Positions 6,980 through 61,606 of a DNA stretch of 64,000 bases are shown here, in pieces. The notes under the pieces were generated by a model. That model saw only the letters and a list, made by a program, of their open reading frames with translations. It was not told where the DNA came from and searched no databases. This stretch comes from Romboutsia ilealis (GTDB taxonomy: Bacteria > Bacillota > Clostridia > Peptostreptococcales > Peptostreptococcaceae): assembly GCF_900015215.1 (NCBI RefSeq), contig NZ_LN555523.1, positions 502,415 through 566,414 of the forward strand, in the 5' to 3' direction. The first letter of the stretch is position 1. The number at the start of each line of letters is the position of its first letter. Made by a program: the position numbers and the translations under genes.

Positions 6980-8134
6980 TTGAGTACTAAAAGAGATTAT
7001 TATGAGGTATTAGGTGTAGATAAAAATGCCGATGAACAAACGATAAAAAAGGCATATAGAAAACTAGCTATGAAATACCATCCAGATAGAAATCCAGATA
7101 ATAAAGAGGCAGAAGAAAAGTTCAAAGAAGTCAATGAAGCATATGAAGTGTTATCAGACGCAACTAAAAGACAAAACTATGATCAATTTGGACATGAAGG
7201 TGTAAATGGTCAAGGTGGATTTGGTGGATTCGGAGGTCAAGGTTTTGGCGGTGGCGGATTTGAAGATATGTTTGGAGATATATTCGGAGATATATTTGGA
7301 GGAGGTTTTGGTGGTGGTTCAAGACCTAGAAGAAGAGGTCCAGAGCGTGGAGACGATATAAAACAAACTGTAAATATAAGCTTTGAAGAAGCGGCATTTG
7401 GTAAAAAAGCATCTATAAAAGTAAATAGAAGTGAAGAGTGTAATGAATGTCATGGTAGCGGAGCAAAACCTGGAACATCTAAAAAAACTTGCCCTACATG
7501 TAATGGTCAAGGGGAAGTTAGAACAGTGCAGAGAACTCCATTTGGTAATATAGCAAGTTCAAGAACTTGTTCAACTTGTGGTGGAGAAGGAGAGGTTTTA
7601 GAAACTCCATGTACAAAGTGTTCAGGTAAGGGAAGCGTTAGAAAGGTAAAAACCATAGAAGTAGATATACCTGCAGGTATCGATGATGGTCAAATGATAA
7701 AGCTATCTGGTCAAGGTGAAGTTGGAAGCAAAGGTGGTCCAAGAGGAGATTTATATATAGTTGTAAATGTAAAACCTCATTCACTGTTTACTAGAGATGG
7801 ATTTGATATATACTTTGAAATGCCTATAACATTTAGTCAAGCTGCATTAGGTGACGAAATAGAAGTTCCAACATTAGATGGTAAGGTTAAATATACTATA
7901 CCAGAAGGAACTCAAACAGGAACTGTATTTAGACTAAGAGAAAAAGGAATTCCAAAACTTAGAGGAAACTCTAGGGGGGATCAATATGTAAAAGTTATAG
8001 TTGATACTCCTAAGAAACTAAATGAAAAGCAAAAAGAGCTTTTAAGACAATTTGCTGCGGAGTGTGGAGAAGAAGTTCATGAAAAAAAGAGTTCTTTTGG
8101 AAAAAAGATAGAAAATTTATTTAAAAAAAAGTAA
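6980..8134 (+). CDS. dnaJ: Molecular chaperone DnaJ (Hsp40, type I)
   Basis: DnaJ stimulates the DnaK ATPase and delivers substrates. The J domain has the HPD motif (KYHPDRNP), then a Gly/Phe-rich region, then four zinc-binding CxxCxGxG repeats ([32 protein letters not shown]) and the C-terminal beta domains. I prefer TTG 6980, spaced 5 nt from AAGGTGGTG, over the GTG inside that site; this gives 384 residues. It is separated from dnaK by 263 nt containing a repeat, so it may have partly independent expression. An intrinsic terminator follows. Confidence 0.97.
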
Positions 8135-34354: not shown

Positions 34355-34618
34355 TTAGAATACGTGTTTACTTTCGTCAAAATCATAAACATCCATCAAA
34401 GCTTCCCCAAATCTTTGATAATGAACGATTTCTCTTTCACCTAAAAATCTTAAAACATTTATTATATCTACATCATCAGTTAAATTTATAAGGTGATAAT
34501 AAGTTGCTAAAGCCTTTTGTTCAGCCGCCATATCTTCGTGTAAATCAGTAACCGGATTTCCCATAACCGCAATAGGAGCAGTACTAAATGGAACACCATT
34601 TGAATCACCTAATAATAC
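34355..34618 (-). pseudogene. cotJC: cotJC, 3' part only (spore-coat manganese-catalase-like protein)
   Basis: Reading leftward, 87 codons are open: VLLGDSNGVPFSTAPIAV, then GNPVTDLHEDMAAEQKALAT and FLGEREIVHYQRFGEALMDV. This is the C-terminal half of CotJC, a ferritin-like Mn-catalase of the spore coat (normally about 190-200 residues); the E and H metal ligands of the second half are kept. The frame meets a stop (TAA at 34619-34621) exactly where homology begins, and a strong hairpin plus phage genes follow. No N-terminal half, cotJA or cotJB is in the window. The residual frame is undamaged, which suggests recent or reversible interruption by the prophage rather than decay. Confidence 0.85.
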
Positions 34619-34625
34619 TTAAAAC
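34606..34625. other. Probable left prophage attachment junction (attL) inside cotJC
   Basis: CotJC similarity ends at about 34618 and unrelated phage-side sequence begins. The exact core cannot be fixed without the right end, which is outside the window. No integrase is present on this side. Confidence 0.6.
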
Positions 34626-34664
34626 CACTAATTAAGAGAAAACTTAATAAGTGGTTTTATTTTA
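34621..34664. terminator. Strong hairpin at the prophage left boundary
   Basis: Arms of 16 nt (AAAACCACTAATTAAG / CTTAATAAGTGGTTTT, one mismatch) with a 6-nt loop, T-rich on the right and A-rich on the left, can terminate both ways and insulate the phage from the host gene. Confidence 0.75.
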
Positions 34665-34688
34665 CCACAAAAAGGTTTTATAAGGAAG

Positions 34689-35120
34689 AGTGTTTGACCT
34701 AGAGTAATCCGAAAGGCTCGATAGAGTACAGGAGAAACCGACTAAACACTTGGGTGAAAATCCCAATTGCATATATGTATGCCTAGCACCATACAAAAGG
34801 GCAAAGAGTAGTAACCTCGGACTACAAAGAAGAACAGGAGTGGGTAGGAAGTCTGATTTGAGGATGATATCAATTTTAATGTGGCTATGGGGTCAGATGT
34901 AGTAAGTATTAAGTTACAAACACAAGATATTGTAAAGGCTGTGCTAGTCCAACGTTGTATGGTCGTAACATACCTATCCTAACTGGGATAATCCAAAAGG
35001 AAGTCTACTCACTGTTTTTCGTGGGTAGCTATGTCCAATTGGCTAAGCCTTCTAGGATAATCAGTTTAGGTTATTAGAAGTCAATAGGTTTCGGTAAAAA
35101 TTGAAACTTGGACATAGCTG
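34689..35120 (+). ncRNA. Large structured RNA candidate at the prophage end
   Basis: About 430 nt without a protein-coding frame but with much higher G+C than its surroundings and many nested pairings: AGTGTTT/AAACACT (34689/34744), TTGGG/CCCAA hairpin (34750-34766), GCATA/TATGC, GTAGT/ACTAC (34808-34825), GTATG/CATAC, CTACTCAC/GTGGGTAG (about 35004-35028), an extended CTTCTA..TAGAAG hairpin, and a perfect 12-bp long-range stem AGCTATGTCCAA / TTGGACATAGCT (35027-35038 with 35108-35119). It lacks a group II domain V, tmRNA, RNase P or SRP signature. Its size and prophage location recall the ROOL/GOLLD class of ornate phage RNAs, but I cannot confirm membership. The strand is inferred from neighbouring phage genes. 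Confidence 0.65.
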
Positions 35121-35169
35121 ATATACTTAATAATAAAAGAAATAGATAATATATAGATTGGAGATAGGA

Positions 35170-35478
35170 ATGAAAAGTAAAAAGTCTGGAGTAAGTATGG
35201 GTGGTACTATTGAATACACAAGAACAAAAAAGAAACAACAATTTATAAATAAGATAGATAGAGTAAAAAAGAAGAATGCAAAAGTATGTGTTAATTGTGT
35301 AGATAACAGGGAAGGTTATTGTGATAGGTTCAAAGGATGGTGTGGTAGAGTGAACTATCACTGCAATGGAGAAACTATATCATATCAAGAAAAGTTACAA
35401 CAAGATAAAATTAAATATGAATTAAAAAAGAAAAAAGAAAAAGAAAAAAGAAGGTGCAATAAAACTTGTAATAAGTAA
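35170..35478 (+). CDS. Small Lys/Cys-rich phage protein
   Basis: 102 residues from the ATG at 35170 (TTGGAGATAGGA upstream). A basic N terminus, a compact cysteine cluster (VCVNCVDNREGYCDRF, then WCGRVNYHCNG) that probably binds zinc, and a long KE-rich helix at the C terminus. No known family is recalled. It is the first protein gene after the structured RNA and may be translated from the same transcript. Confidence 0.6.
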   Translation: MKSKKSGVSMGGTIEYTRTKKKQQFINKIDRVKKKNAKVCVNCVDNREGYCDRFKGWCGRVNYHCNGETISYQEKLQQDKIKYELKKKKEKEKRRCNKTCNK

Positions 35479-43210: not shown

Positions 43211-43285
43211 GCTGGTTTAGCTCAATGGTAGAGCAATGCACTTGTAATGCATAGGTTATAGGTTCGATTCCTATCACCAGCTCCA
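43211..43285 (+). tRNA. tRNA-Thr(UGU), phage-encoded, CCA included
   Basis: A full cloverleaf: acceptor GCTGGTT/CACCAGC (last pair mismatched), D-arm GCTC-AATGGTA-GAGC, anticodon stem ATGCA/TGCAT with loop CTTGTAA (anticodon TGT at 43243-43245), variable AGGTT, T-arm ATAGG-TTCGATT-CCTAT, discriminator T and encoded CCA. G1-C72 and C2-G71 fit threonine identity. ACA is a common codon in these phage genes. Confidence 0.93.
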
Positions 43286-60322: not shown

Positions 60323-60355
60323 AAAATAAAGTGTTGCAAAAATGCAACAATACAT
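60323..60355 (+). promoter_or_regulatory. Operator 2 (TTGCA-N4-TGCAA) upstream of the ParM-like gene
   Basis: TTGCAAAAATGCAA (60334-60347) in AAAATAAAGTG...CAATACA. Same palindrome ends as operator 1 with A4 instead of T4 in the centre. Candidate binding site or centromere-like element of the partition module. Confidence 0.7.
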
Positions 60356-60380
60356 AAAAATAAAAGGAGATTGGAAAGTT

Positions 60381-61274
60381 ATGAATAAGAAAATATATGT
60401 AGATTTAGGCAATAGCAATTACAAAATGTTAGTAGGAGATAAGAAAATAGTAGATTGTAGTAACATCCAAGAAGTAACAGCAGGCACATTTGGAGCTTGG
60501 AATATTGATAATAAACATTACATAATAGGAGCTGGAGCTGTGACACGTAAACAGACTAATAAAATAGTTCCAGAAAAAAGAGCTTTATTAAGCAGGGCAT
60601 TATATAGTGTAGTTGATAATGGAGATAAGATAGACTTAGTAACAGTATTACCTTTAAGTTTATACTTTGATGTAGCAAATAGAGAAAGCTATATAAACCT
60701 TCTAAAAGGCAAACACACTATAACAAATAGTGATGGAGCTAAAAAGAGTTTTACTATAGCTAGTGTGGCTGTATATGCAGAAGGATTTAGTTCATTGATA
60801 ACTGATATGACATTATTACAACAGCCAATATATGTTGTAGATATAGGTGGAACAGATTTAGATATATTTTATGTTAACCGTACACCAGATGCGAATAAAC
60901 TACAAACTACTGAAAAAGGTACTAATATTTTAACAACTCAATTAGCTAAAGTATTAACTTCAAAATTACTTGAAAGTTATAATGGTTCGCAGGTTGAATT
61001 GTTACTAGAAAGATATGAAACACTTCCAAAAGAAATAAAAGATACTATAGATAGCTTTATGGAAGAATATATCAAGGTTAATATACAAATACCTTTAAAA
61101 GATTTAGGATATAGAGATTTATTAGCAACACCAATAATTTTCACAGGTGGAGGTTCAAAGCTAATGGCAAAATATATATCTAAAATACCAAATGCTAAGA
61201 TATTAGACAACTGTATATTTAGTAATATAGAAGGAGCTAGAATACTTGACTTAAGAAAAAATGGAGGTAAATAA
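60381..61274 (+). CDS. ParM/Alp-like actin ATPase (partition)
   Basis: 297 residues with actin-fold motifs: phosphate-1 VDLGNSNYKML, phosphate-2 VVDIGGTDLDIFY, adenosine IIFTGGGSKLMAKY. Bacterial ParM/AlfA filaments push plasmid copies apart. I start at ATG 60381 after AAAAGGAGA; an upstream in-frame ATG lies in the operator. The ParR-like gene follows after 2 nt. Presence on a prophage suggests it can exist as a low-copy plasmid or needs subcellular positioning. Confidence 0.85.
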   Translation: MNKKIYVDLGNSNYKMLVGDKKIVDCSNIQEVTAGTFGAWNIDNKHYIIGAGAVTRKQTNKIVPEKRALLSRALYSVVDNGDKIDLVTVLPLSLYFDVANRESYINLLKGKHTITNSDGAKKSFTIASVAVYAEGFSSLITDMTLLQQPIYVVDIGGTDLDIFYVNRTPDANKLQTTEKGTNILTTQLAKVLTSKLLESYNGSQVELLLERYETLPKEIKDTIDSFMEEYIKVNIQIPLKDLGYRDLLATPIIFTGGGSKLMAKYISKIPNAKILDNCIFSNIEGARILDLRKNGGK

Positions 61275-61276
61275 TA

Positions 61277-61606
61277 ATGCTAATAAAATTAAATATAGAA
61301 GGTGAACTATTAGAACTTTTAAAAAAGGATGCAGAGATTAATTGTAGAACAAACCCACAGCAGATTTTGTACTATTTAAGGCAAATATATAGTGGTCAAT
61401 TATCGGTATCAAACAATACACAAGTGGTACAAATAGAAGTACCTACAGTAAACCAAGAAATACCAATAGTAAATAATGAGGTTCAAGGTGGTAACAATAC
61501 AGGTTTAGCAATGGATATATCAAGTATAAATTATAGTACCAATATGGTACAACAGCAGGAACTTGAAGGTATACCAGAGATTGATGATGATATATTGAAT
61601 TTTTAA
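61277..61606 (+). CDS. ParR-like adaptor, RHH type, 109 aa
   Basis: N-terminal ~45 residues (LIKLNIEGELLELLKKDAEI N..NPQQILYYLRQIYSG) fit a ribbon-helix-helix as in ParR. The rest is low-complexity and Gln/Asn/Val-rich with an acidic hydrophobic tail ending PEIDDDILNF, which could contact the filament as ParR C termini do. It directly follows the ParM-like gene (2 nt). Assigned from context and fold pattern. Confidence 0.6.
   Translation: MLIKLNIEGELLELLKKDAEINCRTNPQQILYYLRQIYSGQLSVSNNTQVVQIEVPTVNQEIPIVNNEVQGGNNTGLAMDISSINYSTNMVQQQELEGIPEIDDDILNF

Follow-up and report, generated by a model that had tools for sequence, protein, structure and literature searches.

A family of large structured RNAs carried mainly by Peptostreptococcaceae plasmids and present at a prophage end in Romboutsia ilealis

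The prophage end and the extent of the RNA

The window is a 64,000-nt stretch of the Romboutsia ilealis genome (RefSeq assembly GCF_900015215.1, contig NZ_LN555523.1, forward strand positions 502,415 to 566,414). The C-terminal half of a cotJC-like Mn-catalase gene lies on its minus strand at 34355-34612 (PF05067, E = 2.7e-18), and the N-terminal half was located about 32 kb further on, outside the window (G000:C1 569515-569796). The prophage spans from the one half to the other; it contains terminase and tape-measure genes, and a recombinase-like gene at its far end clusters with an annotated recombinase. A partition-protein-like gene (phrog_691), followed by a 109-aa ORF, was also found inside the prophage (60342-61606). 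In three related genomes (G002, G004, G030) the RNA described below adjoins a comparable C-terminal piece of cotJC, with sequence that resembles the window to either side; the G030 contig covers only about 3.8 kb of the cotJC-inserted element. The splitting of this cotJC-like spore-coat gene by a recombinase-bearing prophage, in related genomes too, is possibly a sporulation-linked rearrangement.

An initial annotation had placed a large G+C-rich structured RNA without an ORF at 34689-35120, at the prophage end, where it separates the cotJC fragment from the first phage ORF. Its location held, and the RNA is present over that span, but alignment of 20 full-length relatives put the true bounds of the conserved unit at 34674 and about 35118 on the plus strand (34674-35118; about 445 nt in the window, 414-462 nt across the 20 aligned copies). 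No gene-sized ORF was found in 34689-35120, the longest plus-strand ORF listed for the RNA stretch (34750-34902) having a TTG start and a length of 50 aa. The G+C content of the same span is 0.396 as against 0.273 for the whole window, a value reached by 0.08% of 432-nt segments taken at a step of 50 bases. The sole other stretch about as rich in G+C is 7101-7732.

The unit opens with a nearly invariant leader, GGTTTTATAAGGAAG (34674-34689, plus strand), which is possibly part of a -10-like promoter (TATAAG) or a piece of the RNA itself; a promoter scan of the plus strand of the window gave no promoter-like site upstream of it. An inverted repeat followed by T's, read by eye and not assigned to a strand, lies at 34624-34661, in the position of the terminator-like hairpin that precedes the plasmid copies. 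Similar repeats, again read by eye, precede three other cotJC-side copies, and the terminator scan of the window gave no score at 34624-34661. The first phage ORF (35158-35478, plus strand) encodes a small protein that contains Cys and matches nothing in Pfam or PHROG; it starts about 40-50 nt past the last stem of the RNA.

Structure and comparison with known RNA classes

Folding energy was modestly unusual on the plus strand (z -2.05; 1 of 100 shuffles folded as well) and reached z -1.70 on the opposite strand (6 of 100 shuffles as good). It was therefore dropped as proof of structure, which rests on comparison. The main alignment (A6) omitted L037 (internal deletion), L014 (a 57-nt remnant), L015 (a short match that is unrelated), repeat entries for a single locus and four of the 21-kb Terrisporobacter plasmids; L012 and L016 entered it with manually trimmed 3' ends. 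A second alignment (A4) additionally omitted L052 and L053.

Compensatory changes in the stems had been set beforehand as the test of the RNA, and over the full length (20 sequences) 30 of 50 pairs had changes on both sides, against 15.5 in shuffles that ignore relatedness, several alignment rows being close relatives. The covariation score was 0.384 (0.189 in shuffles), there were 107 double-change cells (28.1 in shuffles), and 96.1% of cells were paired compared with at most 45.8% when the strands were slid; the structures tested derive from these same alignments. The 5' domain (20 sequences) had double changes in 24 of 32 pairs and a score of 0.479, against 0.201 shuffled, and the 3' domain (18 sequences) had them in 8 of 17 pairs with a score of 0.361, against 0.199. 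Further pair types, a weaker one of the five measures, were reached by 30 of 500 shuffles for the full length, 123 of 500 for the 3' domain and 0 of 500 for the 5' domain. RNAalifold predicted 35 pairs for the 5' domain in 13 sequences, 23 of them with compensatory cases. Paired positions contained G-U 52 times and A-C 4 times, an imbalance that assigns the structure to the plus strand and speaks for RNA. A real and new structured RNA family is nearly certain.

The structure comprises at least eight helices and two pseudoknots, all given here on the plus strand. P1 and its enclosed arm occupy 34690-34749 (34690-34695 with 34744-34749; double changes in 3 of 6 pairs, 98.3% of cells paired) and are followed by the P2 hairpin at 34750-34766 (5 of 5 pairs, 100%). 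P3 (34767-34770 with 34801-34804; 3 of 4 pairs, 100%) encloses P4 (34777-34781 with 34790-34794; 4 of 5 pairs, the inner four paired in 82.5% of cells). The loop of P4 (34783-34789) forms the 5' strand of pseudoknot 1 and pairs with 34941-34947. Of the cells of this pseudoknot 98.6% were paired, with double changes in 4 of 7 pairs; it was first spotted by eye and then recovered in an all-against-all column scan, in which a competing partner of 34941-34947 at 34704-34715 had an almost equal score (94% paired, 3 of 7 pairs covarying).

The P5 hairpin lies at 34808-34825 (double changes in 3 of 5 pairs, 100% of cells paired), and its loop (34815-34818) is the 5' strand of pseudoknot 2, whose 3' strand is 34838-34841. 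This pairing was first suggested by the column scan, and it was tested by loop swapping because MAFFT misaligns its linker and column counts fail. An exact 4-bp downstream partner was found in 18 of 20 rows and 14 of 16 distinct rows; swapped loops gave a mean of 2.6 and a maximum of 8 of 16, and 0 of 2000 shuffles were as high (mean 6.0 and maximum 11 with G-U allowed). The two rows that miss the four-pair match are L008 and the window, where 34838-34840 pair with 34816-34818 and 34815 does not pair with 34841. No common structure was resolved across subfamilies in the middle domain (about 34842-34940).

On the 3' side, the P9 hairpin (34957-34973) had double changes in 4 of 5 pairs and 95.6% of cells paired, with gaps in two rows. 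P10 (35008-35025; 94.0% of cells paired) changed mostly on one side, with double changes in 1 of 5 pairs. The perfect 12-bp stem noted earlier (35027-35038 with 35108-35119) is present as P11 (35027-35119; 93.7% of cells paired), but it closes the 3' subdomain and not the whole RNA. Eight of its pairs are family-wide (35029-35036 with 35110-35117), three of them with double changes.

A scan of the window with Rfam returned one tRNA only at gathering score. At E <= 10 over 34500-35300 there were eight matches, none to ROOL, GOLLD, OLE, raiA, HEARO, an intron or tmRNA, in a set of 4227 models among which these named families were not individually confirmed. The eight, among them BaMV_CRE at 23 bits (cut-off 100), were set aside as chance. 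Membership of a ROOL/GOLLD-type class, which had been offered as one option, was not borne out, since these scans gave no hit for ROOL, GOLLD, OLE, HEARO or group I. The claim that tmRNA and group II features are missing agrees with Rfam and with ARAGORN, which found no tmRNA, and no credible match to a known intron or ribozyme, named in advance as grounds for refutation, was found in Rfam at the locus. A group I intron was rejected: there was no Rfam match, and a P7-like GACTA/TAGTC pair seen by eye did not covary. The copies of the RNA interrupt no common gene.

Relatives, carriers and the upstream element

A covariance model of the 5' domain (R1) found 13 copies in 12 of 71 Peptostreptococcaceae genomes. 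It matched one of 391 genomes sampled from the class, the window's own, and 12 of 393 genomes sampled from the order, the same twelve, in large searches with stricter filters that lose weak matches and miss unassembled plasmids. Among 72,556 plasmid records, 14 matched by blastn with a relative as query and 10 with the window as query, all ten among the 14; every one is from Terrisporobacter or Clostridioides, and all relatives found belong to the Peptostreptococcaceae. Annotated phage records searched by blastn with three queries and viral contigs searched with three sequence patterns gave no match. No description of the RNA was found in the open-access literature, which was the scope of that search. 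Public RNA-seq reads are available for R. ilealis CRIB (ERS533849-ERS533860; PMC5598433).

Eight of the 13 copies lie on contigs of 7-44 kb that were taken as plasmids by contig and context, four lie beside a cotJC fragment and one at the end of a phage-like contig. The alternative of a new large phage RNA was therefore right as to a new large structured RNA and wrong in emphasis, since this is mainly a plasmid RNA. Of the plasmids of Terrisporobacter sp. COM, two carry the RNA and a third has element II (described below) together with a different region. T. petrolearius ELB also has the RNA on two plasmids, and G004 has it both beside cotJC and on a phage-like contig. The presence of a separate version on each element points to a role on that element's own behalf.

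The plasmid copy in L037 has lost the middle of the RNA; L037 and L043 pair an internal deletion of the RNA with a degenerate element II, as if the two were decaying together. A chromosomal remnant (L014:1494-1557) keeps 57 nt of the 5' end; the ORF downstream of this remnant begins, by eye, like a choloylglycine hydrolase. Contigs with copies of the RNA also carry a Guanidine-I riboswitch and a Flavo-1 match (L042:9176-9271 and L043:19421-19497, both minus strand).

Neighbouring genes differ among the copies, and no gene family was found in common to all carriers. A family of 180-197-aa proteins, HTH-like at the N-terminus and RHH-like at the C-terminus by no more than weak Pfam matches, is encoded on 8 of the 17 elements compared, in one case judged by a match of just 57 aa. 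In six plasmids its gene lies 357-546 bp upstream of the RNA, divergently in two. The protein occurs on 60 plasmids, nearly all from Clostridioides, Paraclostridium and Terrisporobacter, and also where the RNA is missing, as on pCD630 (L062:4150-4695). R1 had no match in the ten of these plasmids searched as non-carriers, and an obligate pairing of the RNA with the protein was rejected. Plasmids pTPELB2 and pTVTCOM3 have a common backbone (95.4% over 2957 aligned bases) with a 194-aa HTH/RHH-like protein, the RNA and a MobV gene, and differ in cargo. No replication protein appears in the gene table of pTPELB2, a table marked as incomplete by PLSDB. L042 and L052 encode Rep_3, and pTPHSE2 encodes a CHC2-primase-like protein. 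The 21-kb Terrisporobacter plasmids carry ParA, ParB and Hin, and no initiator is named in the available part of that account (PMC10564238).

A conserved non-coding element of about 85 nt, here called element II, lies upstream of the RNA on plasmids (L003:4613-4694, L005:3711-3794, L022:4865-4953 and L050:3285-3371, among others). Element II and a terminator-like hairpin precede the RNA in 12 of 12 plasmid copies measured, several of which are close relatives; the end of element II and the RNA are 176-400 nt apart, and the hairpin, followed by T's, stands between the two at 4-209 nt before the RNA. Terminator-like sites were scored just upstream of the RNA in L003, L005 and L050. Sigma-A-like promoters were read by eye before element II (TTGTCA-17-TATAAT in L005, TTGACT-17-TAGAAT in L050), and a promoter search beside the RNA gave counts at chance level.

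Element II gave no hit to Rfam at gathering score. RNAalifold predicted no pair from its alignment, and for this reason the model of it (R2) describes sequence only; folded singly, seven of its sequences had z values between -0.5 and -5.7. Both the sequence and the position of element II are conserved, and any structure in it is putative. R2 matched 11 places in 9 of 71 family genomes: six beside the RNA, two on other G013 contigs, two before regions containing EGFOA and a weak eleventh (24.4 bits, G076). It also matched pTVTCOM2, and it missed L042, one of its own training rows, and the degenerate element of L043. No R2 match occurred in the window, L049 or the three related cotJC stretches.

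Element II also precedes other large G+C-rich non-coding regions, two of which contain EGFOA RNA (Rfam RF02955, an sRNA), behind element II and a terminator-like hairpin (L074:395-528 and L075:1248-1344; 48.9 and 40.5 bits, cut-off 37.7), on contigs of 7.7 and 6.5 kb from the same family. EGFOA thus occupies the same slot as the RNA, but the two differ: RF02955 had no match in the window, nor at gathering score in 12 carrier loci, and R1 had none at the EGFOA stretches or in the other element II stretches lacking the RNA (the G013 contigs and pTVTCOM2). A search of the open-access literature for the name EGFOA gave no account of it. In L067 (16906-16990, minus strand, and about 600 nt after), L072 and L073 element II is followed by another G+C-rich non-coding region with the motif CAATGCAGAAA (by eye), which the two G013 contigs and pTVTCOM2 have in common and which perhaps marks a third RNA.

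Possible functions

The RNA is likely to be a trans-acting one that serves its carrier element. As the best explanation we tentatively favour, at somewhat less than even confidence, a trans-acting RNA for the carrier's replication, copy number or stable maintenance. Such a role appears the most likely because several plasmids in one strain have different versions of the RNA and the region after element II varies. The RNA would act as RNA, not protein, for the element carrying it. On plasmids it stands behind a sigma-A-like promoter (by eye), element II and the terminator-like hairpin, so that its synthesis may need read-through or its own TATAAG-like start. The prophage copy may serve an excised circular form or be a passenger.

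The explanation as a whole is favoured by the covariation and pseudoknots, the excess of G-U over A-C, the differing contexts, the upstream module, the backbone shared by pTPELB2 and pTVTCOM3, and two precedents. In prophages of mycobacteriophages, replication needs a region that expresses a non-coding RNA (PMC7157519); these origins and ColE1 RNA II resemble the present RNA as non-coding RNAs of phages or plasmids, the tie to replication being putative here. They differ in that several present carriers have Rep proteins and no antisense RNA was identified, and the window prophage, unlike those with RNA-based origins, has a recombinase-like gene. A plasmid lncRNA of about 520 nt in L. salivarius lowered the megaplasmid ratio when deleted (PMC5643018). 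It is likened to the window RNA by description, as a plasmid-borne RNA, and not by sequence; in the available text its authors hold that a maintenance role cannot be argued, since some strains lack the lncRNA, and this counts against the replication reading. Also against it are the plausible initiators of several carriers (Rep_3, the CHC2-primase-like protein), the integrated prophage, which with its recombinase-like gene needs no plasmid origin, the chance-level promoter counts, and the HTH/RHH-like protein, whose 60 plasmids include the ten non-carriers. No switch in GC skew was tied to the RNA; skew follows gene direction, and an origin by GC skew was rejected.

It is also possible, though we would not favour it, that the RNA acts in trans on mobile elements in the manner of ROOL and GOLLD, perhaps forming assemblies or binding host components, with no role in replication. 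Those RNAs are encoded in phages and prophages, often near tRNA islands, and form RNA-only cages; as described in the available text (PMC12286853) they are, like the window RNA, large and ornate, borne on mobile elements and without a known partner protein. The pseudoknots of the present RNA fit this comparison, whereas the Rfam results do not. The window RNA is also shorter than the ROOL (659 nt) and GOLLD (>800 nt) RNAs of that study, was found in these searches only in Peptostreptococcaceae, and has no adjoining tRNA array, the sole tRNA of the window being a tRNA-Thr at 43211-43285, 8 kb away (ARAGORN, window only). Element II with its terminator-like hairpin in front, so far on plasmids only, likewise argues against a ROOL/GOLLD-like function.

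A regulator of the host or of rival elements, whether for counter-defence, for superinfection exclusion or for RNA-based control of transcription or translation, seems improbable. The RNA is kept by both phage-like elements and plasmids, and several versions coexist in one strain, as such a regulator might be; no target or partner was found, and no test result points there.

Very improbable is a structure in single-stranded DNA, such as a single-strand origin. Rolling-circle replication is possible for several carriers, which are small plasmids, and single-strand origin types are structured, exchangeable elements, which the pattern of the RNA recalls. A tailed-phage prophage and Rep_3 elements carry it too, however, and the two covarying pseudoknots, the terminator-like hairpins around it and the excess of G-U over A-C argue for RNA, though G-T is partly tolerated in DNA. 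A cis-acting leader or riboswitch, suggested by the closeness of the window's phage ORF to the last stem, is hardly tenable because of gene order: the next gene is convergent or unrelated at other copies, and no downstream gene family is common to plasmid and phage carriers.

Building on the replication reading, one may picture a clostridial plasmid module of promoter, element II, terminator and large RNA, in which unrelated RNAs, EGFOA included, would be exchanged like incompatibility types for RNA-based or RNA-gated replication and copy control, and which phages would also have picked up. We regard this extended proposal as unlikely in its full form.

The outcome is a large RNA family with good support and two covarying pseudoknots, whose slot holds different regions, EGFOA among them, on other plasmids of the same bacteria. 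If the exchangeable-RNA module is real, it could account for those small Peptostreptococcaceae plasmids in which no initiator gene is recognisable. For six newly identified extrachromosomal elements of C. difficile, the replication mode is given as unknown and origin searches as having yielded none, in the available text of PMC6807378. If the RNA is a determinant of replication or copy number, such questions would be directly testable on plasmids of <6 kb.
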